Assembly (NCBI RefSeq): GCF_017313765.1
Contig: NZ_JAFLNC010000002.1
Coordinates: 682,001 to 746,000, forward strand
Direction of reading: 5' to 3'
DNA from: Sneathiella sedimenti
GTDB lineage: Bacteria; Pseudomonadota; Alphaproteobacteria; Sneathiellales; Sneathiellaceae
DNA: 64,000 nucleotides
Numbering within the stretch: the stretch's first letter is position 1; the number at the start of each line of letters is the position of its first letter. The notes below the pieces were generated by a model. That model was not told where the DNA came from, did no database searches, and saw only the letters and a list, made by a program, of their open reading frames with translations. Position numbers and translations under genes: made by a program. Positions 18,949-44,901 of this stretch are shown one piece after another.

Positions 18949-19031
18949 ACCGAAGTTAACTTTAATTCTTAACGCGGCTTTAAGGCCTTATCGCTACTCT
19001 TATGCTTATTTTGCAGAAGGATCGTTTAGCG

Positions 19032-19649
19032 ATGACGTTAGGCAAGCTACTAAAACGCAAGATCCTGAACGCGTTTGCTCAGGATACCCTTGGCGCGACG
19101 GCGGTTGAACTGGCGATGATCGCGCCTGTGCTGATTCTGCTGTTGGTCGGTATCATCGAGCTCAGCATGGCGATGTTCATCAATACGGTGGTGGAAGGCA
19201 GCCTCAAGGATGCGTCCCGCCTTGGCCTGACCGGGCAGATTCAGGACGGGTCCAGCAACACCCAAGCCCTTGTTGATATGCTAAATGAAGCCTCCCTCGG
19301 GCTGTTGGGCCTGACAACCGGTGATGTGACAACGCTGGTCTATGAGAACTTCTCCTATGTGGGGCAGGGCGAGGAATTTACCGATCTCGATGGGGATGGA
19401 GCCTGGACTCCTGGCCCTTATACCCATTCAGACGGCACCGTCTATCCGGATGGCGAGCCCTGGGTCGAAGTGAACGGCAACGGTGTCTATGACGAGGATT
19501 TCGGCGTCGCCGGGCTAGGCGCGCAAGGGGATATCGTGCTCTACACCGTCGAATATAACTGGAACTTCCTGAGCGGTCAGGTCATCCCGATCCTGGATGG
19601 TATTTTACCCATGCGGGCATCCATCGTGGTGCGGAACGAGCCGTATTAA
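19032..19649 (+). CDS. tadE: TadE-like pseudopilin with Ca-loop-like motifs
   Basis: A 205-residue pseudopilin. The N-terminal TadE-type segment is DTLGATAVELAMIAPVLIL, with the type IVb prepilin pattern G-x-x-x-V-E and a membrane helix. The outer domain has two acidic Gly/Asn loops: DLDGDGAWT at residues 118-126 and EVNGNGVYDED at 146-156. Both resemble EF-hand or dockerin calcium loops. TadE and TadF pseudopilins are processed by the prepilin peptidase and help pilus assembly. The ATG at 19032 follows AAGGA. The upstream in-frame ATG at 19002 is less likely. It begins the Tad locus. Confidence 0.85.
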   Translation: MTLGKLLKRKILNAFAQDTLGATAVELAMIAPVLILLLVGIIELSMAMFINTVVEGSLKDASRLGLTGQIQDGSSNTQALVDMLNEASLGLLGLTTGDVTTLVYENFSYVGQGEEFTDLDGDGAWTPGPYTHSDGTVYPDGEPWVEVNGNGVYDEDFGVAGLGAQGDIVLYTVEYNWNFLSGQVIPILDGILPMRASIVVRNEPY

Positions 19650-19678
19650 TGCGCTGTTACCTTTAATTGGGGTTTATA

Positions 19679-20308
19679 ATGAAGCGTTTGTTTAAATCTA
19701 CCGGCAACCGGATACTAGGCCATATCGGCGGGTTCATCCGTAACCATCGTGGCGTTGCCATGGCGGAGTTTGCCCTGATGCTGCCCGTGCTGATGCTGCT
19801 CACCGCCGGCAGTTTTGAGGTTGCGCGCTACGCGCTGATGACCCAGAAGCTGGACCGGATCGCGGCCACCCTCTCGGACCTGATCGCTCGGTCCAATATC
19901 GAGAATATCACCGAGACCGAAATCTCCAACATTATCGATTCCGCCCTCTTTATGGCGCAGCCCTTTGATATTTCGGGCAATAACATGATTATCCTGACCT
20001 CGGTGCAGGGTCGGGCCGGACAGGCCCCCGAAATACTCAGCCAGCGGATTTCAGGCTCGGTTACCAGTGCCAGCAGCATCATCGGCGACACCATCGGCGG
20101 TGACGCAACGCTTCCCGCCGCCTTTCCCGATGCCGGTTCCGGTGAGACACTGGCGGATGGGGAGACCCTGATCATTGCGGAAGTTTATTACGACTATGAT
20201 CCCTACCTGACGGGCGATATCGGCTTCTTCGGGGATATGCTGCTGCGGGCGCATGCCTATTTCCGACCGCGCTTTACCGATACGATTACCTTTCCGGCGG
20301 CTCCCTAG
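19679..20308 (+). CDS. second TadE/TadF-like pseudopilin
   Basis: A 209-residue protein with the TadE-type N-terminus NHRGVAMAEFALMLPVLMLL, giving prepilin-like processing before the hydrophobic helix with Glu at the usual position. The outer region is Ile/Ser/Gly-rich with DDYDP-like acidic patches near YYDYDPYLTGDIG and ends in PRFTDTITFP. It probably corresponds to TadF and partners the previous gene, from which it is separated by 29 bases. The ATG at 19679 follows a GGGG stretch. An in-frame TTG at 19667 is unlikely. A strong terminator follows. Confidence 0.8.
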   Translation: MKRLFKSTGNRILGHIGGFIRNHRGVAMAEFALMLPVLMLLTAGSFEVARYALMTQKLDRIAATLSDLIARSNIENITETEISNIIDSALFMAQPFDISGNNMIILTSVQGRAGQAPEILSQRISGSVTSASSIIGDTIGGDATLPAAFPDAGSGETLADGETLIIAEVYYDYDPYLTGDIGFFGDMLLRAHAYFRPRFTDTITFPAAP

Positions 20309-20646: not shown

Positions 20647-22290
20647 TTATTTCGAAATACGCAGGTTGCTGAGTTCTTCACCGATGGTGTTGAAATTGTC
20701 CGCAAGCTCGGCCGCGGAGGTGGCGACAAATGCATGCTTGGGCGATGTTGCGCAGCTTCTCATCATGCTTGAGTTCCCATCAACGAGGAGCACGGTATAG
20801 ATGATGATCCCTGCGTTCTTCATGGCCGTACAGGTTGCCAGAACCTTGTCATCGACGATGTCGGGATAGCTTGAATAGCCACTGCCGCTGAGGGCGCTTT
20901 GATCAAGAAAGCCCCGATAATCATACTTATTTGACGTCGGGGTCGTGTCGAATAGTTCCGCCCTCGCGTACGCATGATAAATATCATAGGCGCTGCTATT
21001 TGTGCCCAGCGTATTGAGACCGTCTGTCATCAGGACAACGACCTTATCCATATACTGTTCGCCGTAATTAAGGGGCAGGGCCGTGTATCCGGTCGGCAGG
21101 TTGAGTGTTGACGATCCATACCACAGGTTGTTCCAGTTCGGCGAAATCGCGCGCCAGCCCCAGACCATGCCCAGGTTTACGGCCGTGCCGCCATTCGCAT
21201 CCATGGAGTCAATATGCGATTTGATCGTGCTCTTTTCAGCCGTCAGCGGCAGGACCTTGCTCTCTGGGCAATATTTATTGGGGCCACGACTGGAATTCAC
21301 AGAGTAATAGTTCCCACTACTTGAACTATATCTCTTCCAGTCATTATTAGTCTCGCTATCACCGCCGCTATTATCTCCGTGGAAATCATTATCTGAATCC
21401 CGGAAATAGTCGTTCCAGAAATAGGGAACAAAGTCGTCATTTGGCGGATCGTCAGACACATCGACCGTCCCTCCGAGGAGGTGGTCCCGCATCTCGACGC
21501 ATCCTTCCCATCCATAGACCGTGTCATTGACGCCGTCTCCGGTAACATCGCGGCCGAGGGCCGTATTTGATGAGTCGGCGGTAAAAATACTCGTCGAGTT
21601 GTTGGTCAGGTTGGTTTTGTAGGTGTTTTTAAGCCAGTCAATATTCTGCGGCCCGACATTGACGGCCATTGTATAGGGAACGATTCCGACCCAGAGTTTA
21701 TCCCGCGTCTCCTCATTTCCGTACAGAATATCCACAAGGTTTTTGGCAGCGGATTTCAACTCTGCCATCCGCGTACTTCCGCTAAGGCTTGAGTCCATGG
21801 ATCCGGTGTTATCCAGAACCAGGACGAGCTCCATCCCGCGGTTGTCGCGCTTGATTTCGGTCACGGCACCCACCGCGAGGGAGGGCTGGCCCAGGACATT
21901 CATAAAGGTCGTGCCCATGTCCGCGCGGACATTAAGCGCGATATTCTCGCGTGTCGAATCCCAGGTAACCGTCGTTGCGTTCATTGTAATCGGGGAGGTG
22001 CCCATAAATCCGGAGGGGAAATTGGCATCAAAATATTTCTGCGCATCGGCATATATTTCCGCATCCGTGGGCGCAAAGATATTTCGCCCCACTGCCAGTC
22101 CGGCCGCGTCCAGCGCGGTGGAAAGCTTGGATTTCAGGACATAGGCGCGGCCCAGATCAATGGACAGACCGATTGCCCCGAAGATGGGGATCGCCAGAAA
22201 TGCAATGATTACGGCGGACACGCCCTGGTTGTTGTTTGTAAACCGTGCGATGATCCGGCATAGCGAACCGAAAGAATACTTCTTGTTCAT
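20647..22290 (-). CDS. tadG: TadG-like pilus assembly protein with von Willebrand A domain
   Basis: About 547 residues. The N-terminal Tad/TadG region has a membrane helix (GVSAVIIAFLAIPIFGAIGL), then a helical segment (LSTALDAAGLAVGRNI). A vWA domain starts near residue 154. Its metal-ion site motif is VLDNTGSMDSS, with Asp160, Thr162 and Ser164, and a later VVLMTDGLNT. An unusual insertion rich in Asp, Asn, Ser and Tyr lies at about 280-340. The protein is probably anchored in the inner membrane with the vWA domain outside, making adhesion or assembly contacts. It is transcribed opposite to the rest of the locus. The upstream in-frame ATG at 22305 is an alternative start. Confidence 0.87.
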   Translation of the reverse strand: MNKKYSFGSLCRIIARFTNNNQGVSAVIIAFLAIPIFGAIGLSIDLGRAYVLKSKLSTALDAAGLAVGRNIFAPTDAEIYADAQKYFDANFPSGFMGTSPITMNATTVTWDSTRENIALNVRADMGTTFMNVLGQPSLAVGAVTEIKRDNRGMELVLVLDNTGSMDSSLSGSTRMAELKSAAKNLVDILYGNEETRDKLWVGIVPYTMAVNVGPQNIDWLKNTYKTNLTNNSTSIFTADSSNTALGRDVTGDGVNDTVYGWEGCVEMRDHLLGGTVDVSDDPPNDDFVPYFWNDYFRDSDNDFHGDNSGGDSETNNDWKRYSSSSGNYYSVNSSRGPNKYCPESKVLPLTAEKSTIKSHIDSMDANGGTAVNLGMVWGWRAISPNWNNLWYGSSTLNLPTGYTALPLNYGEQYMDKVVVLMTDGLNTLGTNSSAYDIYHAYARAELFDTTPTSNKYDYRGFLDQSALSGSGYSSYPDIVDDKVLATCTAMKNAGIIIYTVLLVDGNSSMMRSCATSPKHAFVATSAAELADNFNTIGEELSNLRISK

Positions 22291-22786
22291 GCTGACACCA
22301 TGCAATCAAAATAAATTTTTCTGACTAACAGCATCAGGCAAATATTTTAAGAATTCCTTAATATCAAGAAGGGATTTCCGCTAATTTGTATTAATTATAT
22401 AAATATAACACCCTTATACATTGTTATGTGAAATATAGTTGAGAAAAAGAAATAAATTTAATAATTAAATATAAATAAAATAAAATAAACGATTAGGTAA
22501 ATTTCGTAAGTATTTCTTTAATAAAATTTTATCAATTATTCGCTATGTTCGATACCAATAAATTCCATTCTTTTAACTATTGATTAATGAATTACCGTTT
22601 AAATTGCACACAAGGCGCGAGGCAAGACGAACTTGGGAAGCGCTTTAACTTTAAGGGGCTTTTCAGGTTGCGGGTTCAACGCGGGCTAAAAAGTCTAGAC
22701 ACCAAAGGGTCTTAAAAACCTGGCGGGACTAAAACCAAGTTTTGTTAAGTGTCAGGACGAAGTTCCTGAATTTTAGGAGACTCAAA
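22291..22786. promoter_or_regulatory. AT-rich divergent control region between tadG and flp
   Basis: Roughly 500 bases without a gene. The part from about 22306 to 22600 is strikingly AT-rich, with long A/T runs such as near 22440-22500, against a GC-rich genome. It must carry the promoters for tadG (leftward) and the flp pilin unit (rightward). A small stem (TCAGGA 22752-22757 with TCCTGA 22764-22769) lies just before the flp ribosome site. I could not define -35/-10 elements with confidence. Confidence 0.6.
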
Positions 22787-23017
22787 ATGATTAAAGTAAT
22801 CCGTTCTTTTGTAACAGACGAGTCTGGTGCTACGGCTATTGAATATGGTCTGATCGCTGCTCTCGTCGCTCTGGTTGGTGTTGTTGCCTTTACCGCTCTC
22901 GGTGATACGATTGTTGGTGCATTCGACGATATCGCAGAAGCTCTGTGTACTGGTACAGGTGGTACCTATACTGCATCTACGACAGGTGCAAATGCTACAG
23001 CCGGTTCATGCAGCTAA
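22787..23017 (+). CDS. flp: Flp/Fap-type type IVb pilin, first copy
   Basis: The major subunit of Tad pili, 76 residues. The conserved Flp core is DESGATAIEYGLIAALVA. Cleavage by the prepilin peptidase is expected after Gly14, with Glu19-Tyr20 forming the Flp motif. The C-terminal tail is unusually long and Thr/Gly-rich, with two cysteines (54 and 75) that could form a disulfide loop. ATG at 22787 has a good AGGAG seven bases upstream. The longer frame from 22742 is not the start. The codons are A/T-richer than in the second copy, suggesting different history or expression level. Confidence 0.95.
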   Translation: MIKVIRSFVTDESGATAIEYGLIAALVALVGVVAFTALGDTIVGAFDDIAEALCTGTGGTYTASTTGANATAGSCS

Positions 23018-23127: not shown

Positions 23128-23343
23128 ATGGTTCACGTAGCAGATTTCCTCAACGACGAATCCGGTGCCACCGCCATCGAATACGGCCTGATCGCCGCCC
23201 TCGTATCCATTGCAGCCGTGGTTGCCTTCGGGTCGACCGGTGAAACGATCCTTGAAGCCTTCTCTGGCATCACCGAAGATTTCTGTGTTGCGATCGGTGG
23301 AAACTTCACCCTGTCCAATGACGGTCTCGACAGCTGTTCCTGA
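23128..23343 (+). CDS. Flp-type pilin, second copy
   Basis: A 71-residue paralogue of the first pilin. The core DESGATAIEYGLIAALVS is nearly the same, with processing expected after Gly13 and the Glu-Tyr pair at 18-19. The tail differs (DFCVAIGGNF, then SNDGLDSCS) but again has two cysteines (53 and 70). GGAGG lies six bases upstream of the ATG. Codon use is more GC-rich than in the first copy. It may be a minor or alternate pilin. A terminator follows, so the two pilin genes form a unit separate from cpaB onward. Confidence 0.93.
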   Translation: MVHVADFLNDESGATAIEYGLIAALVSIAAVVAFGSTGETILEAFSGITEDFCVAIGGNFTLSNDGLDSCS

Positions 23344-23413: not shown

Positions 23414-23585
23414 CCAAATCCAGCCAATTTTATACAGTTTTTACGCTCAATTTCGGCAGTTTCTTGCGGTTTATTTACGCCGGAATACCGCGAAATTTAC
23501 CCCATAATTCGTCCCAAATTTAACCGGAAATTAATGTCTTTCAGTTTAGGGTTGGCGATATTTGAAACCTTATGGAATTAACACC

Positions 23586-24479
23586 ATGGCGCGAAAATTA
23601 ATATTGATCGTATTTGCATTGCTCATTACCGGATCAACAGTATGGTTTGTGCGCAATTGGGCTGGACAGCAAGCACCGGCCACTGAAACGGCTCAGGTTG
23701 TGACGCAACAGCCCGTTCAACAGAAAATCAGAATTCTCGTGGCGGCAACCGACCTTCCCGCCGGCACCCTGGTTCAGGAACAGCATCTGAAATGGCAGGC
23801 CTGGCCTGAAGATGATGATATAGAGGATATCTATGTCGTTGAAGAAGTACGGCCCCTGGAAGATTTCATCGGCACGGTCGTGCGTCAGGGCGTTGCAGCT
23901 GGCGAACCAATTACCGATTCCCGTATGGTCAAACCTGGACAGAGCGGATTTCTCGCTGCGGTCCTCAATCCCGGAAAACGCGCCGTTTCCATTGCCGTCG
24001 ATATGACATCAGGTATTGCCGGATTTGTATTTCCCGGTGACCGGGTCGATGTCATCCTGACTCACTCCATCGTCAAGGAGTCGGAAGTAGAGGGTGAGAC
24101 GAGCGGCCGCCGCGCCAGTGAAACCATCCTGACCGACGTTCGGATCGTGGCCATGGACCAATCAACAAACGACCAGAACCAGGAGGCAGCGCTTCGCCGT
24201 GTTGCCACGCTGGAAGTTACTCCGAAGGGTGCGGAAATTATCGCCGTTGCCAAGGAGCTGGGCAGCCTGACCCTGTCTCTTCGCGCTCTCGCGCGCGTTG
24301 AGGATGAAGCAAGAAGCAAGGATGGCCAGGTGGCGTTCAAGGCCGAACGCGGCCGGGGACATACCTGGGATAGCGAAGCAAGCCGCCTGATTACCGGTGG
24401 ATCCCCGCGGATGGGTATTCCGACAACAGTCATCAATGTCGTACGCGCTGGCGATGCCAAGCAGAAGTTGTTCGACTAA
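23586..24479 (+). CDS. cpaB: Flp pilus assembly protein CpaB/RcpC
   Basis: About 297 residues with an N-terminal membrane segment (LILIVFALLITGSTVWFV). An SAF-type domain follows (VLVAATDLPAGT-like: RILVAATDLPAGTLVQEQHL). The conserved core is GKRAVSIAVDMTSGIAGFVFPGDRVDVILTHS. CpaB is a periplasmic protein thought to help gate or stabilise the secretin. ATG at 23586 is chosen. A TTG at 23562 would extend it by eight residues. It begins the run cpaB-cpaC-cpaD-cpaE-cpaF-tadB-tadC with small gaps or overlaps. No cpaA-type peptidase gene lies between the pilins and cpaB. Confidence 0.93.
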   Translation: MARKLILIVFALLITGSTVWFVRNWAGQQAPATETAQVVTQQPVQQKIRILVAATDLPAGTLVQEQHLKWQAWPEDDDIEDIYVVEEVRPLEDFIGTVVRQGVAAGEPITDSRMVKPGQSGFLAAVLNPGKRAVSIAVDMTSGIAGFVFPGDRVDVILTHSIVKESEVEGETSGRRASETILTDVRIVAMDQSTNDQNQEAALRRVATLEVTPKGAEIIAVAKELGSLTLSLRALARVEDEARSKDGQVAFKAERGRGHTWDSEASRLITGGSPRMGIPTTVINVVRAGDAKQKLFD

Positions 24480-24491
24480 GGAGTAGTTTCG

Positions 24492-25910
24492 ATGCTGACC
24501 AGACTATTACAACCGTTGGCCGCCCTTGGGCTGGGACTGATGTTGACCGTCGGCGCTCCGACAAATATTCACGCGGCGCAGGTCATAAACGCCAAGGGTG
24601 ACATTCTCGCCCTGACCCTGAATTCGGGTAAGCTTGTTCAGCTGGATCAGCCGGCAACCTCCGTCTTTGTTGGAAATCCGGAACTTGCCGATGTGCAGGT
24701 CCAGTCACCGACAATCATCTATGTTTTTGGGAAAGGGACGGGCAGTACGAACCTGTTTGCCCTCGACGCCAAGGGCCGGGTTCTGCTGAACTCCCCGATC
24801 TCCATCACCCATGATGTGACCTCCCTGAATGACGCCCTGCAGGATATCAGCCCCAATGGCGGCCTGATGGCGCGTTCCACCCCCACCGGCATTATGCTGA
24901 CCGGACGGGTGAAATCTGCGGCGCAGGCCGAGGATGCCCGTCGGATGGCGGAACTTTATCTCGGTGGCGGAACAGTCTTCAACCGGATCGAGGTGGCCGG
25001 CGCGATGCAGGTTAACCTGCGTGTCCGTATCGCCGAGGTATCCCGCTCCGTCACCAAGCAATTCGGCGTGAACTGGGAAGTCTTTGGCCGTATCGGCGAT
25101 GCCTTTCTCGGTTTCGCTACTCCGGTCGATATCGTCGGATCCGGCGCAACCGGGATTACCCGGCTCGGTACCGGAACGAACTTTGTTTCGGGCTATGCCG
25201 ACAAGAATGTTGATATCCTGAATGTGATTGACGCGCTGGATGAGGAGGGTTTGCTCACCATTCTGGCGGAACCAAACCTGACGGCCCTGTCCGGTGAAAC
25301 GGCGCAATTCCTGGCTGGTGGTGAATTCCCCATTCCTGTTCCGCAGGAAGACGGCGCGATTACCGTTCAGTACAAGCCCTTTGGTGTTTCTCTTGAATTC
25401 AAGCCGACAATTGTTGATGACAACCTGATCAATCTGCAGGTCAGGCCGGAAGTCAGCCAGCTGTCGTCACAGTCCGCCATTAACGTCGGCGGTTCCTTTA
25501 TTCAGTCGCTATTGACCCGTCGCGCCGAGACCACCGTGGAACTGGCAAGCGGGCAAAGTTTTGCCATTGGCGGGCTGCTGAGCAGTGACGGGGACAATAA
25601 TATCTCCAAAACGCCGTTCCTTGGCGACATCCCGATTTTGGGTGCCCTGTTCCGGTCGTCTTCTTTCCAGCGGAACGAGACGGAGCTGCTGATTATCGTG
25701 ACGCCGTATCTTGTCAAGCCTAGCAATTCGCGGATTGCGGAGCCGACAGACGGTTACATTCCGCCGAATGACAAGGATCTCTATGTCGGTGCGCAGAATT
25801 TCCGTCCGACGCTGGGCGAAAATGCACCGGAGAAGGACGGGCGGGACACTGCCGCAACGGCGCCGAATGATGTCAAGCTTGCTGGCCCTGCTGGCTTTAT
25901 CCTGGAGTAG
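24492..25910 (+). CDS. cpaC: outer-membrane secretin CpaC/RcpA
   Basis: A 472-residue secretin that forms the outer-membrane channel of the Tad system. A signal peptide (AAQVINA) leads to BON/pilus-secretin N-domains (KLVQLDQPATSVFVGNPELADVQV). The secretin core follows with VNLRVRIAEVSRSVTKQFGVNWE, a conserved EPNLTALSGETAQFLAGGEFPIPV, and a C-terminal part with FLGDIPILGALFRS and ELLIIVTPYLV. The length is typical. GGAGTAG lies before the ATG, 12 bases after cpaB. It works with the CpaD lipoprotein as pilotin-like partner. Confidence 0.96.
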   Translation: MLTRLLQPLAALGLGLMLTVGAPTNIHAAQVINAKGDILALTLNSGKLVQLDQPATSVFVGNPELADVQVQSPTIIYVFGKGTGSTNLFALDAKGRVLLNSPISITHDVTSLNDALQDISPNGGLMARSTPTGIMLTGRVKSAAQAEDARRMAELYLGGGTVFNRIEVAGAMQVNLRVRIAEVSRSVTKQFGVNWEVFGRIGDAFLGFATPVDIVGSGATGITRLGTGTNFVSGYADKNVDILNVIDALDEEGLLTILAEPNLTALSGETAQFLAGGEFPIPVPQEDGAITVQYKPFGVSLEFKPTIVDDNLINLQVRPEVSQLSSQSAINVGGSFIQSLLTRRAETTVELASGQSFAIGGLLSSDGDNNISKTPFLGDIPILGALFRSSSFQRNETELLIIVTPYLVKPSNSRIAEPTDGYIPPNDKDLYVGAQNFRPTLGENAPEKDGRDTAATAPNDVKLAGPAGFILE

Positions 25911-25915
25911 ATCTG

Positions 25916-26593
25916 ATGCAACAGAACTTGTTTAAGAAATCCGCGACGCTGGCCAGCCTGGTCGGGATGCTTCTATTGACCGCATCCTGCACATCCCCGG
26001 AAGGCTTGATGGGCGCTTATGATCGAACCGCGACACCGGAAAAGGCGACGCTGGACAAGAAAATCTCGGTCAGTGAGCTAACGCCAACCATTATTGTTGA
26101 TTTCGAAGCTGGCCGCGCCCGCCTTCCTGATATGGAAAAGGGTAAGCTGCTTGGCTTTATCGAGGCTCAGGAGATCGAGTTCGGCGAAACGGTCGAGGTC
26201 GAGTTTCCCAGCATTCAGGGCAATAGCGGGCTGAGCGAGCAACGATTCGCTGAGGTCGCAGAGTTCCTGCAGGACCGGGGCTTTTCCGTTGCACCACGCG
26301 CAACGAAGGAGAGCGGGACTGATTCGCTGCGGGTCTATTTCGTGAAATATATCGCTACGGTCGATCCGAACTGCCAGAAGGGCTGGTACAAGCCAAAAGG
26401 GATCGGATACGAAAATCTGCCGCTTCCCTATATGGGCTGTGCGAATGCCGATGCATTGGCAGGCATGATTGCCAATCCGCGCGATCTGGTCGATCCGGCG
26501 AATGAGAGTGCCGCCATTGGCGAGCGGGCGGCAAAGGCAATTGAAAATTACCGGGCCGGAGCGGCCAGTTCCGCCGGCGCTTCCGGGCAATAA
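25916..26593 (+). CDS. cpaD: Tad lipoprotein CpaD
   Basis: A 225-residue lipoprotein with a signal peptide and lipobox LLTASCTS. The CpaD-type domain ends with the conserved block YMGCANADALAGMIANPRDL. CpaD binds the secretin complex at the outer membrane. A strongly acidic region (FDAGRAR-like: DFEAGRARLPDME) precedes it. It starts five bases after cpaC, with GGAG in the cpaC tail as ribosome site. It is in the usual cpaBCDEF order, which supports the name despite low sequence conservation in this family. Confidence 0.9.
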   Translation: MQQNLFKKSATLASLVGMLLLTASCTSPEGLMGAYDRTATPEKATLDKKISVSELTPTIIVDFEAGRARLPDMEKGKLLGFIEAQEIEFGETVEVEFPSIQGNSGLSEQRFAEVAEFLQDRGFSVAPRATKESGTDSLRVYFVKYIATVDPNCQKGWYKPKGIGYENLPLPYMGCANADALAGMIANPRDLVDPANESAAIGERAAKAIENYRAGAASSAGASGQ

Positions 26594-26607
26594 GGGAGTC
26601 AGAGGAC

Positions 26608-27846
26608 ATGGCGAAATCTTCATCTTTAAGCACGCTTTTCGGCAACGCGGTCTGCGAAGATTATATGGGCTTTCTTGACGATGAAAAATCGCTGGAGGTC
26701 AGCCGCGAGGTCTGTACGGCGCTTGATTATTCGTTGGATTCAACCCTCGACGGCGGCATCACGGCGGCGTTGAGCCGGATTGAGCCGGGGCATTCCCCCA
26801 AAGTCGTGCTGGCCGACATCACCCAGAGCATCGACCCCGACAGTGACATCACGCGGCTTATCCGGAAAATGGGTCCGGAGAACACGCTGATCGTATTGGG
26901 TGCCTCGAACGATGTCAGCGAGTTTCGCAAAATGATTGCGCTTGGCGCCAAAGACTATTTGGTCAAGCCGTTGACAGCGGAGGTCCTGAAAGATGCGATT
27001 GAAAATGTCGGTCGCCAGTCCCAGGCACTCTCTGCTGCCCAAAGTGGCAAGTTGACCGTTGTTGTCGGCGTACGCGGTGGGGTCGGTGCGACGACCATTG
27101 CCACGAACCTCGCCTGGATCATGGCCAATGAGGAAAAGCTGCCGACGGCGCTGATGGACATGGACCTGCATTTCGGCACGACGACCCTGTCTCTTGATAT
27201 TGAAACGGGGGGTGGCTTCCGCGAGGCCCTCGAAAATCCGCACCGGCTCGACAAGCTGTTTCTGGATAGTGCGATTGTCAAGGATGGCGACCGTCTCGCA
27301 GTTCTTGGTACCGAAGAGCCGATTGATGAACTTGTTGATATGAATGAAGAATCGATCGACGCGCTGATCGGCGAGATCAGCCAGGACTATAACCAGGTTG
27401 TCGTCGATCTGCCGCGCCATCTCTTGCCGACGCAGGGGGCTCTTCTGGCCTCTGCCGATACGGTCATTCTCGTGTCCGATCAGTCGCTTGCTGGTATCCG
27501 CGATATCAACCGGATCACCCAGGCCATGACGACGCTGCAGACCAAGGGACGTATCCTTAAGGTGGTTAGCCGTGTCGGGTCTGATCGTTCAGCGCAGGTA
27601 TCCAAAGCGGATTTCGAACGCGGCCTGAACGAGTCGGTCGACTATGTGGTTCCGGAGGATTCCAAAACCCTGACCATCTGTGCCAACGCCGGTAAGGCGA
27701 TTGACGAGGTAGCGATCAAATCTCCCATCGCAAAGGTCTTGCAGGATCTGGCGGCGGATGTATCCGGATATGAAAAGCCGAAGAAGAAGGGACTGTTCAC
27801 ACTGGTTCCCGGCGGCAAGAAAAAGAAAGAAGTGGGTCCTAAGTAG
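26608..27846 (+). CDS. cpaE: CpaE/TadZ, polar-localising ParA/MinD-like ATPase
   Basis: A 412-residue protein. The N-terminal receiver-like domain (about 1-135) is followed by a ParA/MinD ATPase domain. Its P-loop is GVRGGVGATTIATN at about 153, a deviant Walker A in which the usual final GKT is GAT. This fits TadZ, which often lacks canonical ATPase residues. Other landmarks are MDMDLHFGTT and a Lys-rich end. TadZ places the secretion machine at the cell pole in related bacteria. The reading frame stop overlaps the cpaF start by one base, and GAGG precedes the ATG. Confidence 0.94.
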   Translation: MAKSSSLSTLFGNAVCEDYMGFLDDEKSLEVSREVCTALDYSLDSTLDGGITAALSRIEPGHSPKVVLADITQSIDPDSDITRLIRKMGPENTLIVLGASNDVSEFRKMIALGAKDYLVKPLTAEVLKDAIENVGRQSQALSAAQSGKLTVVVGVRGGVGATTIATNLAWIMANEEKLPTALMDMDLHFGTTTLSLDIETGGGFREALENPHRLDKLFLDSAIVKDGDRLAVLGTEEPIDELVDMNEESIDALIGEISQDYNQVVVDLPRHLLPTQGALLASADTVILVSDQSLAGIRDINRITQAMTTLQTKGRILKVVSRVGSDRSAQVSKADFERGLNESVDYVVPEDSKTLTICANAGKAIDEVAIKSPIAKVLQDLAADVSGYEKPKKKGLFTLVPGGKKKKEVGPK

Positions 27847-29750
27847 TGAGTTTATGGCGTTCATCTTCATCGGTTAAGAAAGGCAAGGCCGCTCCGGTAG
27901 CTCCGAGCGCGGCCGGCCCGCAGGTGACCGGTCTTCTGGCGAAATTGTCACCGGAGATCGCAGAAAAACTGCTGCCCGAAATTGATGCAAACGAAAACCG
28001 CTCTACCGTTGCGCAGTTGGTGAAGGCTTATCTTCGCGACGCCATGAAACGGGAAAAGGTGGATCTGAACGTCCTGGAACAGCGCACCCTCGTTAATGAC
28101 CTTACGCAGTCGCTGTGGAAGGAACTCGAGAAGAAAAAACAATCCCGGCCGGTTAAGGCAAGCCCTGAGCCGTCGGCTCCCGAAACCAGCGACGCTGTCG
28201 TTCCTGACGTCAAGGACGATCAGGACAGCACCGTCTATACGCAAATCATCGAAGAAGGGGTAACCGTCTTTGGCGTTGACCCGGAATCGCCGGTCGAGAT
28301 CAAGACCGAGTTTGAGCGACCGCAGGAGATTAACGATCCGGCACCGGGATTGGAAGCTGAAGACGATGAGGTAATCGAGCCTGTCGTACCGCTTGCCAAA
28401 ACCTTGGTTGAGGAAGATGAACCGGATCACAATGACAAGTCCGCAACCCTCTTCAATCTAGATATGACGCCGGAGACCACGGGCACCAAGATGAACAAGC
28501 ATCTTGAGACCGTGAAGCTCGTGGTGCAGCCGCTCCTGATGGAGCGCATCGATATCAGTGCTGCCGTCACCATGGACCGGCTCGACCTTGCGCGCGATAT
28601 TTCCGATATCATCACCGATATCCTGATCGAGGAACGCATCCAGCTCAACCAGCGTGAACAGCGTGAACTGGCCGAAAGCCTCATGCATGACATGCTTGGG
28701 CTGGGTCCGCTGGAGCCGCTGCTGGCCGATGAGTCGATTACGGATATCATGGTCAACGGCCCCAAGCAGGTCTATGTGGAACAGAAAGGCAAGCTGGTAC
28801 TGTCGGACTGCCAGTTCCGCGATAACGCCCATGTGTTGCAGGTCGCCGGCCGGATCGTCAGCCATGTCGGCCGCCGGGTCGATGAATCGAACCCGCTTGT
28901 GGATGCGCGTCTCGCCGACGGTAGCCGTGTAAATATCATCATTCCGCCGCTTGCCATTGACGGTCCGTCGATCTCGATTCGTAAGTTTGCCAAGCAGAAA
29001 ATTACCCTCGACGTGATGGAGCGGACGCAGAACCTGTCGTCGGCCATGGCGACGGTGCTTAGGGTTGCCGGCCGGTCGCGGCTGAACATCCTGATTTCAG
29101 GCGGTACCGGTTCCGGTAAGACGACCATGCTGAACGCGATTTCCCAGCTGATCGACCCGGGTGAGCGTATCGTCACCATTGAGGACGCGGCCGAGCTGCA
29201 GTTGCAGCAGCCGCATGTCGTGCGTCTGGAAACCCGATCCGCCAACCTTGAAGGCGGCGGCGAGATTTCAATGCGGGAATTGTTGAAGAACTCCCTGCGT
29301 ATGCGTCCCGATCGCATCATCCTTGGTGAAATTCGTGGCAGTGAGGCGATTGACATGCTTCAGGCCATGAACACGGGCCATGACGGATCACTGTCGACAA
29401 TTCACGCCAACCGCCCGCGTGAGGCTTTGACCCGGCTTGAAAACATGGTCGGGATGTCGAGCGTCAACCTGCCGGCAAAAGCCGTGCGTACCCAGATCGC
29501 TTCTGCGATTGACCTGATCGTCCAGATCAGCCGCATGCGCGACGGTGTCCGGCGCGTGACCTATATTTCCGAAGTCGTCGGCATGGAAGAAGACGTTATC
29601 ACCATGCAGGACCTCTTCTGGTACGAATTCCACAGTGAAGACAAGGGCGGCCGACTGCTCGGTGAGTTTAAGTCAACCGGACTGCGGCCGCATTTTGCGC
29701 CGCGCGCGGCTTATTTTGGCTTGGAGAAGATGCTTTTAGGAGCCATGTGA
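27846..29750 (+). CDS. cpaF: Tad secretion ATPase CpaF/TadA
   Basis: A 634-residue hexameric ATPase that powers pilus extension (and, in Tad systems, possibly retraction). The P-loop GGTGSGKT lies at about 419-426. The secretion ATPase signature includes MRPDRIILGEIRGSEAIDMLQAMNTGHDGSLSTIHANRPREAL. The first 200 residues form a variable region with an acidic linker (EAEDDEVIEPVVPL), longer than in many CpaF proteins. Start is GTG, overlapping the cpaE stop. The next gene starts at the cpaF stop codon (TGATG). Confidence 0.97.
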   Translation: MSLWRSSSSVKKGKAAPVAPSAAGPQVTGLLAKLSPEIAEKLLPEIDANENRSTVAQLVKAYLRDAMKREKVDLNVLEQRTLVNDLTQSLWKELEKKKQSRPVKASPEPSAPETSDAVVPDVKDDQDSTVYTQIIEEGVTVFGVDPESPVEIKTEFERPQEINDPAPGLEAEDDEVIEPVVPLAKTLVEEDEPDHNDKSATLFNLDMTPETTGTKMNKHLETVKLVVQPLLMERIDISAAVTMDRLDLARDISDIITDILIEERIQLNQREQRELAESLMHDMLGLGPLEPLLADESITDIMVNGPKQVYVEQKGKLVLSDCQFRDNAHVLQVAGRIVSHVGRRVDESNPLVDARLADGSRVNIIIPPLAIDGPSISIRKFAKQKITLDVMERTQNLSSAMATVLRVAGRSRLNILISGGTGSGKTTMLNAISQLIDPGERIVTIEDAAELQLQQPHVVRLETRSANLEGGGEISMRELLKNSLRMRPDRIILGEIRGSEAIDMLQAMNTGHDGSLSTIHANRPREALTRLENMVGMSSVNLPAKAVRTQIASAIDLIVQISRMRDGVRRVTYISEVVGMEEDVITMQDLFWYEFHSEDKGGRLLGEFKSTGLRPHFAPRAAYFGLEKMLLGAM

Positions 29751-30757
29751 TGATCGATTCTGCCGGATCTGGAGACCTACTAACCATGATGCTCGTCGTA
29801 GGGGGCGCAACGCTCCTTATATCCCTGCTGTTGGCATTTGCCTTCGCCGGGGGAGACAGCCATTCACGGGAAGCCAGGCGTCGCCTGACAGAGATCAGCC
29901 AGGGTCATAAACCGGTGGGCAAAACAAAGGCGCGCAGTTCGGCGCGGCGGACCCAGGATACCAGTGGCATCAAGCTTTTCGACAGCATGATCCGAACTCT
30001 CGTTCCCAACCCGGACCTGTTGAAAATACGGCTAGAGAAAACCGGGTTAAATATTCCGATCTCCAGATATGCGACCGTGACCGGCATCTTGATTCTGACG
30101 ATCATACTCGCCGGGCATTATCTCTATGACATGTCGATGTTCCTGGCGATACCGGTGGGTCTGGCGGCGGGCCTGTTTCTGCCGCACGCCACGGTCGGCT
30201 ATCTCGGCAAGCGGCGGGTCAACAAGTTCATGAAAACATTTCCCGAAGCGATCGAGCTGCTGTGTCGCGGTCTGCGCGCCGGTCTGCCGATCAGCGAGGC
30301 GATTGTTACCGTCGGCAATGATGCGCCTGATCCGGTGGGCAAGGAATTCCGGGGTGTTGCCAATGCCATGCGGGTGGGGCAGAGCCTTGAAAGCGGGCTC
30401 TGGGATGTTTCCCGTCGTATCGACCTGCCGGACTTCAAATTCCTGATTATCGCCATATCCATTCAGCGCGAAACGGGCGGTAACCTTGCCGAAACACTCG
30501 GCGGGCTTGCCAATACCCTGCGCAAACGGCGTCAGATCAAGCTCAAAATCAAGGCGATGTCGTCGGAGGCGCGGGCCAGCGCCTGGATTATCGGCTCCTT
30601 GCCCTTCATCATGTTCGGTCTGCTGTGGCTGGCAAATGAAGGCTATGTCGGGACGCTGCTGACTGATCCGCGCGGCATGTATTTGATCGGCGCGGGGCTC
30701 GGCATGATTGGCTCGGGCGTCGGCGTGATGGCCAAGATGGTCCGCTTCGAGATTTAG
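29750..30757 (+). CDS. tadB: inner-membrane platform protein TadB
   Basis: A 335-residue GspF/T2SF-type platform protein. Membrane segments lie near residues 12-32, 106-140 and two at the C-terminus (SAWIIGSLPFIMFGLLWLA and the last 25 residues). The T2SF domain includes FPEAIELLCRGLRAGLPISEAI and GGNLAETLGGLANTLRKRRQIK. TadB with TadC forms the inner-membrane base driven by CpaF. ATG at 29750 overlaps the cpaF stop, with AGGAG eight bases upstream. Order and size match other Tad loci. Confidence 0.95.
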   Translation: MIDSAGSGDLLTMMLVVGGATLLISLLLAFAFAGGDSHSREARRRLTEISQGHKPVGKTKARSSARRTQDTSGIKLFDSMIRTLVPNPDLLKIRLEKTGLNIPISRYATVTGILILTIILAGHYLYDMSMFLAIPVGLAAGLFLPHATVGYLGKRRVNKFMKTFPEAIELLCRGLRAGLPISEAIVTVGNDAPDPVGKEFRGVANAMRVGQSLESGLWDVSRRIDLPDFKFLIIAISIQRETGGNLAETLGGLANTLRKRRQIKLKIKAMSSEARASAWIIGSLPFIMFGLLWLANEGYVGTLLTDPRGMYLIGAGLGMIGSGVGVMAKMVRFEI

Positions 30758-30766
30758 GAGAGAGAC

Positions 30767-31750
30767 ATGGTCGATATCGTCACGCTACTTCCCGATTGGT
30801 TACGCGACGAAAATATGCTGGCGCTGATTGCGGGCGTTGCCTCTTTCGCGGTTGTCATGATGATGTGGAATGCCTTCCTCGTGAAGGACGCATTGCCGGG
30901 CCGGATCAAGAATCTTGAAAAACGGCGGACCAAGCTGAAGAGCGATATCGTCAACGAGACGAAGCAGCGCAGCAAGCTGATCGTGCGCGAGAACATGATG
31001 CATCGCGTGGTGAAGAAGCTGCAGCTGATGCGCGGCGAGCGCGCGAAGGTGATGGCGGCCAAGCTGGCAAAGGGTGGCTGGCGATCGAAAGACGCCCTGG
31101 TGGCCTATCTGTTTGCCAAGATTACGCTGCCGATTCTGTTTGCTGTCCTGACAGCCGCCTATCTTCTTGGCACGGATATTGTGGACTGGTCAGTCCCTGT
31201 ACGTCTACTGGCGGCCGGCTTCGCCGGCTTTGTCGGCTATTTGCTGCCCGATACCCTGGTGAAAAACAAGGTTGCCAAACGGTATCAGGCGATCCGGAAA
31301 TCGCTGCCGGACGCGCTCGATCTCCTGGTCATCTGTACGGAGGCGGGGCTCAATCTTGACAGCGGGCTGGACCGGGTTTGCCGTGAAATCGCCAACTCCG
31401 CGCCGGAACTGTCCGATGAACTCGGCCTGACCTCCATTGAAATCGGGTTCTTGCCCGATCGCAAGCTGGCGCTTGCCAATCTGGCGGCGCGCGTTGATTT
31501 CCAGGCCATGAATACGCTGGTCAATACGCTGATCCAGACGGAAAAATACGGAACGCCGCTGGCGGTTGCCCTTCGGGTGCTGGCCGCGGAAATGCGGGAC
31601 GAACGCCTGATGAAGGCGGAGGAGAAGGCGGCGCGGTTGCCCGCCATCATGACTGTCCCGATGATTGTCTTCATCCTGCCGGCGCTGTTTATCGTTCTGA
31701 TCGGCCCCGCGGTCCTGAAGGCCATCGATGCATTCGCCGGACCGGGCTGA
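30767..31750 (+). CDS. tadC: inner-membrane platform protein TadC
   Basis: A 327-residue TadC protein, the second T2SF-domain platform component. Landmarks are the N-terminal membrane segment, a basic cytoplasmic stretch (RRTKLKSDIVNETKQRSKL), IRKSLPDALDLLVICTEAGLNLDSGL as the T2SF core, and a C-terminal pair of membrane helices (MTVPMIVFILPALFIVLIGPAVL). It follows tadB after nine bases. It closes the cpaB-tadC run and is followed by a strong terminator. Confidence 0.95.
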   Translation: MVDIVTLLPDWLRDENMLALIAGVASFAVVMMMWNAFLVKDALPGRIKNLEKRRTKLKSDIVNETKQRSKLIVRENMMHRVVKKLQLMRGERAKVMAAKLAKGGWRSKDALVAYLFAKITLPILFAVLTAAYLLGTDIVDWSVPVRLLAAGFAGFVGYLLPDTLVKNKVAKRYQAIRKSLPDALDLLVICTEAGLNLDSGLDRVCREIANSAPELSDELGLTSIEIGFLPDRKLALANLAARVDFQAMNTLVNTLIQTEKYGTPLAVALRVLAAEMRDERLMKAEEKAARLPAIMTVPMIVFILPALFIVLIGPAVLKAIDAFAGPG

Positions 31751-32105: not shown

Positions 32106-34067
32106 CTAGAGGGCGCCGTTGAAGTTTTCCTCAAACTCGGCAGTCAGGCTCGGTTCAAACGGTTTCTTCTGCTTGTTATCGTCGCCGCTATCCACCATGC
32201 GCTGGTTCGGTGCGAGGGAGGGTGTGCCGTCTTTCTTGACCGGTTCCTTGGATTTCGGCGTCATCGGGATGAAGCATTCGAAATTGCGATCGCGCAGGCT
32301 GCCGCAGAGCTGCATCATCCGGATCTTGTCGGAGAAGCCGCCAATTTTCAGGCGATAGAACAGGCCACCCTTATCCTCGCCGAGATCAATCTCCTGGATG
32401 ACAGGGTCGATTTCGCCAAGCAGGTCGACATTCTGGGTCTGCACGATTGACCAGCCTTTTTCCGCGTCCTTCTTTTCCTTGTAGGAGCCGATTTGCAGGA
32501 AGTAGCTGCCGCCATCAGGCTTGTAGGCGTTTACGCTTCCATTGACAGGCATATCACCGGGTGTCAGGCCAACCTTTTCTACGGTCGGGGCAGTTTCTAC
32601 CGGAACCTCCGCCACAACGGGGGCAGATTTGGGTGATACAGGCGCTGCTTTCTTGTCCAGCGTCCATTCGCGGGCTGGGGCCGGGGCCTCTACCTTCGCG
32701 GTGGTCACTGGTTTCTCGGCCGGTACGCTTTCCTTCTTCACGAAGGTCACAGGTTTTTCAGCGGGGGCCTTGGTATCTTTTGCGTCCACATCCTTCTTCG
32801 CGACGGTGACAGCTTTATCCTGTGCCGGTGCCGGGTCTTTCTTCACGAAAGTGACAGGCTTTTCCGCAGGAGCGTCAACCTCTGCGGCGGCAACCGCAAC
32901 CGGCTTTTCATCCGGCATTGGCGTTGTTTTCTTGGCGACAACAACAGGGGCCACATCCTTCACCACCGGTGATTTTGCTTTTGGCGTCTCGGATTTCGCC
33001 ATCATCATAGGCGGAGTCGCCGGAACGAGGCTTTTCGGCTCTGTCCGGGACGGTGCGGATTTCTTGCGGGCACTGGCATTCGTGCTCAGCTCTTCCTTGT
33101 CAAGCCGGGCCACGAGTACATCCGGGTTTTCCGGCAGGCGCGGCGTGGCGGATTTCGCCCGTTCATCGGCGACCACTTCATCCTTGGAGGCTTTCATCAG
33201 CTTGATCTGGTCATCCAGCGTGGCGACCTGTTCGTCTGTTTTGCTGTTCAGCGCCTCGAAATAAAGCGCATTGTTGCGGGCGTCCTTCTCCGAGAGATCC
33301 ATACGGGAATATTTCATCGCCTCGCCGGATTTCCCGGCCAGGCCATAGGCGAGTGCCAGGGTCTGGCGATGCTGCGCGGTGGCGTGCGGATTTTCGGTGA
33401 CAACCTTCAAGATCGCGATTGCCTGTTCGGTCTTGCCGGACAGGGCAAGGGAGAGAGCAAGATTACTCTTGTGGTTGAGGTTATCGGGGTCTGCCTTGAT
33501 GGCGCGTTGATAATAGCTCTGTGCCTTTTCATGATCGCCCGCCTTGTCGAGCGCGATAGCGAGGCCACCGAGGGACTTGCCGTCATTGCTGTCGATCTCA
33601 AGCGCATTCATAAAGGACTGGGAGGCGAGATAGGGCTTTTCAATCTGCAACTGGCTATAGCCGATGCCGTGATGGGCCGCGAGATTGTTCGCATCGAAGG
33701 CGAGAACGCGCTGGTAGATGGAGACGGCCTCTTGCGCCCGGCCGGTTTTGCGCAGGATTTCCCCAATTGCAAGATAGGGTTCGGGGTCGGTTGGGCGCTG
33801 GTTGGCGGCCGTGGCGTAAATCCCGAGCGCTGTCGTGGAATCATTCTTCTGCCAGGCGCGCTGGGCGACCCGCATCATTGATTCATAGGTCATGCCCTTC
33901 GATGAACTTGCATCGCTGGAGGCGGTCGTGGCGATCACGGGCCGGGCATCGGCCGGATCGGCAGAAGCAGATTGATCCGAGATCGTGTTACAACCCGCAG
34001 CAACCAGGCCGGTCGTAGCGAGAAGAACAATCCGGAGACGGGCGGCAAATCGTGTATTTTGCGGCAC
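32106..34067 (-). CDS. TadD-like TPR lipoprotein with C-terminal SPOR domain
   Basis: A 653-residue predicted lipoprotein. The signal peptide ends at VAAGCN. TPR repeats span about residues 60-250 (for example PEPYLAIGEILRKTGRAQEA and AAHHGIGYSQLQIEKPYLAS), as in TadD. A long Lys/Pro/Val-rich linker follows at about 310-500, with the phrase AEKPVTFVKK repeated. At about 520-595 lies a SPOR-like domain (YFLQIGSYKEKKDAEKGW, then GLFYRLKIGGF). SPOR domains bind peptidoglycan stripped of stem peptides. TadD is usually about 250 residues and lacks this module. It is convergent with tadC and closes the locus. Confidence 0.85.
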   Translation of the reverse strand: MPQNTRFAARLRIVLLATTGLVAAGCNTISDQSASADPADARPVIATTASSDASSSKGMTYESMMRVAQRAWQKNDSTTALGIYATAANQRPTDPEPYLAIGEILRKTGRAQEAVSIYQRVLAFDANNLAAHHGIGYSQLQIEKPYLASQSFMNALEIDSNDGKSLGGLAIALDKAGDHEKAQSYYQRAIKADPDNLNHKSNLALSLALSGKTEQAIAILKVVTENPHATAQHRQTLALAYGLAGKSGEAMKYSRMDLSEKDARNNALYFEALNSKTDEQVATLDDQIKLMKASKDEVVADERAKSATPRLPENPDVLVARLDKEELSTNASARKKSAPSRTEPKSLVPATPPMMMAKSETPKAKSPVVKDVAPVVVAKKTTPMPDEKPVAVAAAEVDAPAEKPVTFVKKDPAPAQDKAVTVAKKDVDAKDTKAPAEKPVTFVKKESVPAEKPVTTAKVEAPAPAREWTLDKKAAPVSPKSAPVVAEVPVETAPTVEKVGLTPGDMPVNGSVNAYKPDGGSYFLQIGSYKEKKDAEKGWSIVQTQNVDLLGEIDPVIQEIDLGEDKGGLFYRLKIGGFSDKIRMMQLCGSLRDRNFECFIPMTPKSKEPVKKDGTPSLAPNQRMVDSGDDNKQKKPFEPSLTAEFEENFNGAL

Positions 34068-34226
34068 AGCTAGGCCTCTCTTTAAATAGAAAAACTAATC
34101 AATGCTACATCCTAGGGGCATCTTCCTTAAAAACGGTTAATGGTTAGGAAAAATTGTCGTCAAATTGATTAAGAACCGCAATTAATCAAATTTTGCTAAT
34201 TTTCCCGGTATTTAGACTTAAAGAGC

Positions 34227-34583
34227 CTATAGCCGCCGCCGTTTGATGGGCTCGGCTTGCGCCGCCGGCTCGCGGTTTCGGCTTACCTCCACCGGTTGCT
34301 GGCCGGTGACGCTGACGGGATGACGGTAGGCGGGGGCTGAATTAACAGCCGGCGGCCGCGACGGATCAACAAAGCGGTGAAACATCCCGGAGCGGATCTG
34401 GTCCGGCAGGACATCAAACAAGGCGACCGTGTTGTCGAGGCCGATCCCGTTAACGAAATTGGCGATGGCGATGGTGAGCAGGCCGGTGCGTACCGTGCTA
34501 GCGTCTATGCCCTGCTGGTTGCAGCGGGCCAAGGCGTCCGAAAATTCCTTTGCGACGATATTATTCATGTTTTCCCTGTTCAT
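34227..34583 (-). CDS. uncharacterised small protein
   Basis: I do not recognise a family. The 118 residues divide into a helical N-terminal part (MNNIVAKEFSDALARCNQQG, then LLTIAIANFVNGIGLDNTVALFDVLP) and a Pro/Arg-rich, probably disordered tail ending in KRRRL. No signal peptide or membrane segment is clear. The start at 34583 has CAGGAG with a seven-base spacing. The open frame runs much further upstream, but that part overlaps the sirtuin gene and looks non-coding. It lies divergent from the sirtuin gene and near the Tad locus. Confidence 0.65.
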   Translation of the reverse strand: MNRENMNNIVAKEFSDALARCNQQGIDASTVRTGLLTIAIANFVNGIGLDNTVALFDVLPDQIRSGMFHRFVDPSRPPAVNSAPAYRHPVSVTGQQPVEVSRNREPAAQAEPIKRRRL

Positions 34584-43787: not shown

Positions 43788-44585
43788 TTAATTTTTCTTA
43801 ACCGGGTTGTCATCATCGTCGAATGACATATCCGGCAATTGTGTCGAATTGCTGGCACCGTTAAGAATCATGTTGTTTCGATTCTGTCGGTACAGACTTC
43901 TGATCGCCGCATAGAAATCGATGGAGTTTTTCTCGATTTCATCAAGGGCTTCAATCGCGCGGGACCTTTGGTCGATCCCGTTTACTGCCCAGCGAACAGC
44001 GCCGGCATGCTCAATGCCGTTTTCTTTTGCCGCGTAATTGACAGGGTCAAGATAGTAATCGGCAATTCCGCCAACGGCGGCACGCGTTGTTCTCGGTCCG
44101 AGGACGGGAATAACGAGATAGGGACCTTCCTGAATGCCCCATTTGGCAAAGGTCTGACCCATATCTTCTGAAGGGGTGTTCAGCTTGGCCACGTCAAACA
44201 GGCCGCCAACGCCCAGGAACGTATTGGTAAAGAACGCGCCCATATTATCGCCGGCACCGTTCAGGTCACCCTGCAGGACATTATTGATCAGGTAGATCGG
44301 CTGCGACAGGTTGGTCAGGAAATTGGTTACGCTGTCGCGCACAGCCTCAGGCAAAACACCTCGGTACATTTCCGCCACCGGTTTGAGGAACAGCGCATCA
44401 AGGGCGTAGTTCACATCAAAGAAATAGCGGTTCATGGGTTCCAGGGGATCATAAACCTCGTCATACATCACAGCAACGGCTTTGCCATCCTTCTGCTGTG
44501 GTGACGCACAGCCACTGACTGCAACAAGAAGGGCAATCGCCGTTAAACCGGCTGTTAAGGAGGATGATTTTGAACGCAAACCCAT
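43788..44585 (-). CDS. mlaA: MlaA/VacJ outer-membrane lipoprotein
   Basis: A 265-residue lipoprotein with lipobox AVSGCA. The conserved VacJ core includes YDPLEPMNRYFFDVNYALD, NFLTNLSQPIYLINNVLQGD, TFLGVGGLFDVA and WGIQEGPYLVIPVLGPRTTR. MlaA extracts misplaced phospholipids from the outer leaflet and hands them to MlaC. The chosen ATG at 44585 follows GGAAAAG. An upstream in-frame ATG at 44630 would precede the signal peptide by 15 residues. It heads the mlaA-mlaC unit and has an acidic C-terminus. Confidence 0.94.
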   Translation of the reverse strand: MGLRSKSSSLTAGLTAIALLVAVSGCASPQQKDGKAVAVMYDEVYDPLEPMNRYFFDVNYALDALFLKPVAEMYRGVLPEAVRDSVTNFLTNLSQPIYLINNVLQGDLNGAGDNMGAFFTNTFLGVGGLFDVAKLNTPSEDMGQTFAKWGIQEGPYLVIPVLGPRTTRAAVGGIADYYLDPVNYAAKENGIEHAGAVRWAVNGIDQRSRAIEALDEIEKNSIDFYAAIRSLYRQNRNNMILNGASNSTQLPDMSFDDDDNPVKKN

Positions 44586-44901
44586 TTTTATCTTTTCCAA
44601 CTCAGTACCTGTGATCCGGAAGTGAGGCATAATCTATCCGGTAAGAGTTACCAAAGTCTTTAACCTTTTTAGTTAACTCTGTTTAACTGCATTTCACAAT
44701 AAAACAATAGTCCTAGACGAAGACAACCTCCGACGTTGTAACTATCATATGGCTAAATCCAACGCGAGTCGCTGCTTTTTCAGGTTAACAGAATACTTTT
44801 ATGGTGTGGCGAAAAAGTCGCGGATAGGGTTATAATTTTCCTGTACAAAGATATAAGGATATGTTTATATCATTTAAATTAATGATTTTATTGAGGTTGA
44901 T
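44586..44901. other. 316-base divergent intergenic region between mlaA and sahR
   Basis: AT-rich region that carries the promoters of both divergent units. The sahR side has a perfect TATAAT and a palindrome. No further gene or recognised riboswitch was found. In particular I did not see a SAM-II pattern. Confidence 0.5.
44831..44871 (+). promoter_or_regulatory. candidate -10 and SahR-type operator before sahR-metF-metH
   Basis: A perfect TATAAT lies at 44831-44836, with only a poor -35 upstream. GATAATA-like arms follow: GATATAA (44850-44856) and TTATATC (44865-44871) form a perfect seven-base inverted repeat with an eight-base spacer. It lies just after the expected start of transcription, a good place for a repressor of the ArsR family. 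Confidence 0.55.

Follow-up and report, generated by a model that had tools for sequence, protein, structure and literature searches.

The gene described here lies at positions 32106-34067 (minus strand) of a 64-kb window, by which we mean the whole stretch of 64,000 nucleotides of Sneathiella sedimenti DNA that was analysed. It forms one uninterrupted frame from a GTG, preceded by a purine-rich, ribosome-binding-like stretch, to a stop codon, and encodes a lipoprotein of 653 aa, conserved in 22 genomes of marine Sneathiella, that we call TadD-SPOR. The protein opens with a lipoprotein signal peptide and lipobox (residues 1-26; 33990..34067, minus strand) reading LVAAGC (LVAAGC-N), in which Cys26, the probable site of lipidation, is invariant in 20/20 aligned proteins. 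There follows a horseshoe of six TPRs (residues 61-275; 33243..33887, minus strand) that matches many Pfam TPR models (best E 4.8e-14), is predicted by AlphaFold2 mostly at pLDDT >90, and ends in a signature typical of TadD proteins. The model continues with ~200 disordered residues and then a small alpha/beta C-terminal domain: a linker of ~210 aa rich in Lys, Pro, Ala, Val, Glu and Thr (residues 306-517; 32517..33152, minus strand; pLDDT mostly <50), with these six residues making up 73% of the sequence over about residues 276-517, and a SPOR domain (residues 519-600; 32268..32513, minus strand) identified by Pfam, fold and alignment, with Q525, S528, Y529 and R572 at glycan-contact positions. 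The initial annotation had read lipobox, TPRs, linker and SPOR domain in a single frame, and the open frame, the Pfam matches and the invariant Cys26 bear this out.

It had also singled out a repeat, AEKPVTFVKK, in the linker. This sequence is present exactly twice, at residues 401-410 (32838..32867, minus strand) and 436-445 (32733..32762, minus strand), but is confined to the linker of S. sedimenti. Since relatives lack it and the linker drifts, we rejected a functional meaning for the repeat and regard it as a feature of the linker. Upstream on the same strand, a gene for a 118-aa protein (34227-34583), with only a sub-threshold Pfam match (Kgd4-YMR31), adjoins the TadD-SPOR gene across Sneathiella and a sister genus (G024).

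The SPOR assignment, for which a profile search had been proposed, is supported by three approaches. The domain matches PF05036 with an E of 2.1e-6 and 28.4 bits, above the cut-off of 21, and fold and profile comparisons agree. As a fold search with the whole model was filled by TPR folds, the SPOR domain was predicted alone (pLDDT 89.5) and searched alone. Its best match is the SPOR domain of Pseudomonas aeruginosa RlpA (6i05; Z 9.6, 2.2 A over 75 residues), with the RlpA SPOR-denuded-glycan complex scoring Z 9.4 (RlpA matches span 2.2-2.5 A over 75-76 residues) and the SPOR domains of CwlC, DedD and DamX also found, lower than RlpA. A profile built from Sneathiella-type SPOR segments finds CwlC (2.2e-5) and FtsN (6.8e-4) in the PDB by sequence. 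We further find that Q525 and R572 are invariant in 20/20 aligned proteins and align, in the profile alignment, with FtsN Q251 and R285, hence with RlpA Q270 and R309; the FtsN residues matter for septal localisation and the RlpA residues touch the glycan (PMC6895207). SPOR domains contact NAM/NAG through the conserved Gln and basic residue and select denuded glycan, in which septa are enriched; the proteins carrying them mostly act in division (PMC6895207).

Rates of evolution differ between the parts of the protein. In the pairs nearest S. sedimenti, dN/dS is 0.04-0.05 for the TPR part, 0.05-0.06 for SPOR, 0.18-0.20 for the linker and 0.18-0.39 for the tail; overall, it is 0.04-0.05 for the TPR part in most comparisons, about 0.05-0.14 for SPOR where measurable, and 0.18-0.36 for the linker. 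Purifying selection is thus equally strong on SPOR and on the TPR part, and the linker and tail are relaxed. Slow evolution together with the invariant Gln525 and Arg572 indicates that the SPOR domain is most likely functional, not a remnant. FtsN, DedD, DamX, RlpA and RgsS likewise combine a disordered linker with a SPOR domain that has a conserved Gln and a basic residue, but they join these to a division or lytic-enzyme module, whereas TadD-SPOR has a TPR module of the secretin-lipoprotein kind. RlpA is a lipoprotein too.

The gene is convergent with tadC, the last gene of a tad operon on the opposite strand (cpaB-C-D-E-F-tadB-tadC; 23562-31750). The operon comprises cpaB/rcpC (23562..24479; PF16976), with a true start perhaps slightly downstream, the secretin gene cpaC (24492..25910; PF00263, PF13629), cpaD (25916..26593; PF09476), cpaE/tadZ (26608..27846), the ATPase gene cpaF/tadA (27846..29750; PF00437), tadB/cpaG (29747..30757; PF00482) and tadC/cpaH (30767..31750; PF00482 and synteny), all on the plus strand. 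The same locus, which we call tad locus 1, also holds genes for two Flp pilins (22787..23017 and 23128..23343, plus strand; both PF04964), a TadE-family gene (19002..19649, plus strand; PF07811), a second TadE/F-like gene recognized by its sequence and by homologues in other tad loci (19667..20308, plus strand), and a TadG-like gene with a VWA domain (20647..22305, minus strand; PF13400). Among 386 alphaproteobacterial genomes, Sneathiella excluded, 46 of 78 TadD-like TPR matches face tadC convergently at no more than 2.2 kb from its 3' end, and another 5 of the 78 are close to that end but share the strand of tadC. By position and sequence, then, we identify TadD-SPOR as the tadD of the complete tad locus 1, at a slot common in Alphaproteobacteria.

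The family assignment draws on features other than overall fold. The TPR model resembles the pilotin-type fold of PilW (2vq2; Z 20.7, 213 residues aligned at 3.3 A), but TPR folds of many unrelated proteins reach equal scores, and the TPR fold by itself is unspecific for TadD. Beyond the generic TPR pattern there is the C-terminal signature RQxLALxYGLAG...RxDL...N..Y, common to TadD-SPOR and TPR proteins of tad loci; aligned with further TadD-like TPR proteins, which mostly come from tad loci, the TPR part is 30-43% identical, with invariant S, R, A, G and N. The protein falls below the NCBIfam cut-offs for PilW/PilF (TIGR02521; 42 vs 154 bits), PrsT (TIGR02917; 57/312), MamA (NF040959; 65/200) and Tgl (NF033762; 24/225), and no LysM, a mark of FimV/HubP, is among the Pfam matches listed for it. 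With the signature, the slot at the tad locus and the significant SPOR match, the earlier description of a TadD-like lipoprotein fused to SPOR stands.

A candidate partner is encoded in the same locus. The P. aeruginosa pilotin TadD binds in its groove the very end of the secretin RcpA (L414, S415 and D416; PMC10499894). The CpaC secretin ends in GPAGFI[LM]E in Sneathiella (GPAGFILE in S. sedimenti), and across distant tad loci the tip is mostly GF-x-x-[ED] behind divergent tails, as expected of a short C-terminal ligand. The tip thus resembles the RcpA tail bound by P. aeruginosa TadD, and by this analogy we propose it as the ligand of the TPR groove. Judged by spacing, the invariant R106 is the likely counterpart of groove Arg79 (P. 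aeruginosa numbering); at groove position Asn/Asp139, where the Asn is reported to be conserved among TadD proteins, most Sneathiella copies apparently have Gly, in a region where the alignment is uncertain. Designed TPR proteins crowd the PDB lists, and P. aeruginosa TadD itself (8odn_B) appears as a weak match (4.6e-4) from a Caballeronia TadD query. The P. aeruginosa TadD-RcpA pair and TadD-SPOR share a tad outer-membrane TPR lipoprotein with a PilF/PilW-like fold and a secretin tip of the same kind, and differ in that TadD-SPOR has 653 vs about 255 residues, a long disordered linker and SPOR domain, and a gene convergent to tadC. TadD-SPOR thereby breaks a usual, non-essential TadD trait, that of being a short TPR-only protein.

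TadD-SPOR is present in 22/22 Sneathiella genomes that have tad locus 1, with the SPOR end of one of the 22 copies missing at a contig end. Presence in all 22 and the low dN/dS of SPOR argue that the TPR-linker-SPOR architecture did not arise by chance. The gene demonstrably adjoins tadC in 18 of the 22 genomes, and in 3 of the other 4, whose assemblies are fragmented, it and tadC fall on separate short contigs. In the remaining one (G015; L045, L124), a good assembly, tad locus 1 is on another large contig and the TadD-SPOR gene still adjoins a sirtuin gene. The sister genus G024 has tandem lipoproteins at the tadD slot, one TPR-SPOR and one TPR-SPOR-SPOR (L041 9185-11023 and 11025-12329, minus strand).

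In other alphaproteobacterial families, a SPOR domain occurs at the convergent tadD slot in G120 (43 bits) and G083 (58.7 bits), as well as in G207 and G295, both found by the Sneathiella-type SPOR profile and the latter below the Pfam cut-off. It seems degenerate in G346, G064 and G273, where the key Gln is replaced by Asp or Glu, G273 still being above the Pfam cut-off. TPR-SPOR relatives of TadD away from tad were found in two other alphaproteobacterial families (five genomes; L091, L092, L094, L095, L100), all five of which have tad elsewhere. Every Sneathiella genome with tad locus 1 thus has the fusion and every other fusion-carrying genome found has a tad system; among the genomes checked, the fusion was never seen without tad. 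Many alphaproteobacterial TadD proteins at the slot have no SPOR domain, and in tad loci on plasmids of Azospirillum, Skermanella, Pseudosulfitobacter and Caballeronia TadD is an ordinary TPR protein (about 268-302 aa in the four opened). With so many TadD proteins in this position either lacking SPOR or carrying degenerate copies, the tail is not required for Tad generally. On a tree of the TPR domains the SPOR label is patchy, with at least 4 changes by parsimony, and a single origin is compatible; the tail may have been gained or lost repeatedly in Alphaproteobacteria, or may have arisen once.

An ordinary TadD of 273 aa is encoded in the same genome, 108 kb away, within a second, different tad locus. 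The initial annotation had named a separate normal tadD, coupled with no co-occurrence of the fusion with tad loci, as evidence against its interpretation; such a gene does exist, but it is part of tad locus 2, and TadD-SPOR co-occurs with tad locus 1. The second locus (L040 104-10900) pairs its canonical TadD with a secretin ending in GPAGYIY.

The promoters of tad locus 1 carry candidate CtrA sites. The CtrA consensus, TTAA-N7-TTAA, occurs 4 times in the 64-kb window vs 0.22 expected, each time in a tad promoter: that of tadE (18969..18983, plus strand), tadG (22347..22361, unstranded), flp (22573..22587, plus strand) and cpaB (23520..23534, plus strand). In 11 further Sneathiella species, CtrA-type sites are again found at these promoters; tad locus 2 has none. 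No strict TTAA-N7-TTAA lies upstream of the TadD-SPOR gene, where a strongly conserved element, TTAACNGTTTTTAAGGA (34124..34140, minus strand; 57-73 bp upstream of the GTG), contains TTAA-N6-TTAA as a candidate CtrA-type site, present in this promoter in 16/18. CtrA uses N6 spacing at Caulobacter pilA and ctrA P2 (PMC11264516). These are matches of sequence, but they suggest that the pilus system of tad locus 1 may be cell-cycle controlled. Beyond the tad locus, a divergent gene pair is surrounded by further TTAA-N6-TTAA/TTAA-N8-TTAA sequences, at 43788-43801, 44543-44558 and 44673-44686.

We propose that TadD-SPOR is a TadD-family (pilotin-type) lipoprotein that would anchor the outer-membrane pore of the Tad system, or position it, on septal or polar wall processed by amidases, and we give this reading an even chance of being right. 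In this scheme the lipidated N-terminus would be embedded in the outer membrane's inner leaflet, and the TPR horseshoe would bind the CpaC C-terminal tip (GFILE-COOH). The ~210-residue linker would span to the wall, where the SPOR domain would bind glycan that amidases have freed of stem peptides, at the septum or the newborn pole. Wall derived from division would then be the place where the Tad secretin is assembled or retained, and TadD-SPOR may have a role in pilus placement. It is plausible, as initially suggested, that the protein could tie the biogenesis of Tad to wall at the septum or a young pole, because the glycan-contact residues are kept, CtrA-type sites are found at locus 1 and not at locus 2, and type IVa pili provide a precedent, being placed by peptidoglycan recognition through PilQ AMIN and FimV LysM (PMC5285504). 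In FimV/HubP and the PilQ AMIN domain, as proposed for TadD-SPOR, a peptidoglycan-binding module places a pilus secretin at division-derived poles; the comparison is of how the systems work only, as they use LysM or AMIN where TadD-SPOR uses SPOR, and FimV is an inner-membrane protein with cytoplasmic TPRs. A stronger version is possible, though we think it probably goes too far: a pilotin-type lipoprotein would read amidase-processed glycan of the septum, and the Tad pore would be built at newborn poles and nowhere else, its site and time both being set by what division leaves behind in wall chemistry, along a route repeatedly gained or lost in Alphaproteobacteria.

The sequence evidence does not separate a TadD-SPOR that holds the secretin from one with an accessory or post-assembly role, and the latter is a serious rival. 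CpaD, whose gene is present in tad locus 1, would support the secretin, and TadD-SPOR would not serve as a pilotin here but act once machines are assembled, for example by holding them at the pole, ending piliation or tethering the outer membrane to the wall at division. The C. crescentus TadD orthologue, CpaO, is not needed for pili and is expressed later than the other outer-membrane Tad genes, with CpaD proposed there as secretin partner and wall anchor (PMC13170226). CpaO belongs, like TadD-SPOR, to an alphaproteobacterial tad/cpa system, its pilus programme being CtrA-controlled, and the TadD-SPOR gene is served by a separate promoter whose site spacing differs; CpaO differs, however, in being dispensable and in having no SPOR domain reported. 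Conservation of both the TadD signature and the CpaC tip speaks against such a late role, as does the absence of the fusion from tad-less genomes among those checked, and we consider it somewhat unlikely.

Positional evidence bears on another possibility, that TadD-SPOR is a divisome lipoprotein beside tad by chance, with the cell-division machinery rather than CpaC as its partner. SPOR proteins do mostly work in division (PMC6895207), the G015 gene is kept beside the sirtuin gene with the tad operon on another contig, and two other families have TPR-SPOR relatives away from tad; G015 and all the genomes with such off-locus relatives nevertheless keep a tad system. The sequence is that of the TadD family, and adjacency to tadC in 18/22 Sneathiella copies, with 3 of the 4 others in fragmented assemblies, makes a chance neighbour unlikely. 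The long flexible linker would also suit a generic tether, in which SPOR anchors the secretin to peptidoglycan so that it withstands pulling, without favouring septum or pole, and secretins of other systems are wall-anchored, for example by GspB/OutB of the T2SS (PMC9239104). That SPOR selects septum-enriched denuded glycan (PMC6895207), and that the ligand residues are kept here, make an unbiased tether very unlikely. A functionless, vestigial SPOR tail, for which the degenerate copies in other families might be cited, is scarcely credible given a dN/dS of about 0.05 in near pairs, the invariance of Q525 and R572, and the duplicated SPOR domain of the sister genus.

TadD pilotins and SPOR proteins are both known; a TadD-type lipoprotein with a SPOR tail is new in that we found no description of it in the literature searched, an absence that is no proof. 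On the question of how Tad machines cross the wall and come to sit at the poles, a 2025 structural study of the P. aeruginosa Tad alignment complex notes that neither a peptidoglycan hydrolase nor a lytic transglycosylase has been reported for Tad pili (PMC12307814). Under the anchoring model that we favour, TadD-SPOR is a concrete and genetically separable candidate for coupling pore placement to division, and the question is testable in cultured Sneathiella. It would also help to account for a TadD that one alphaproteobacterium can do without and others have elaborated.
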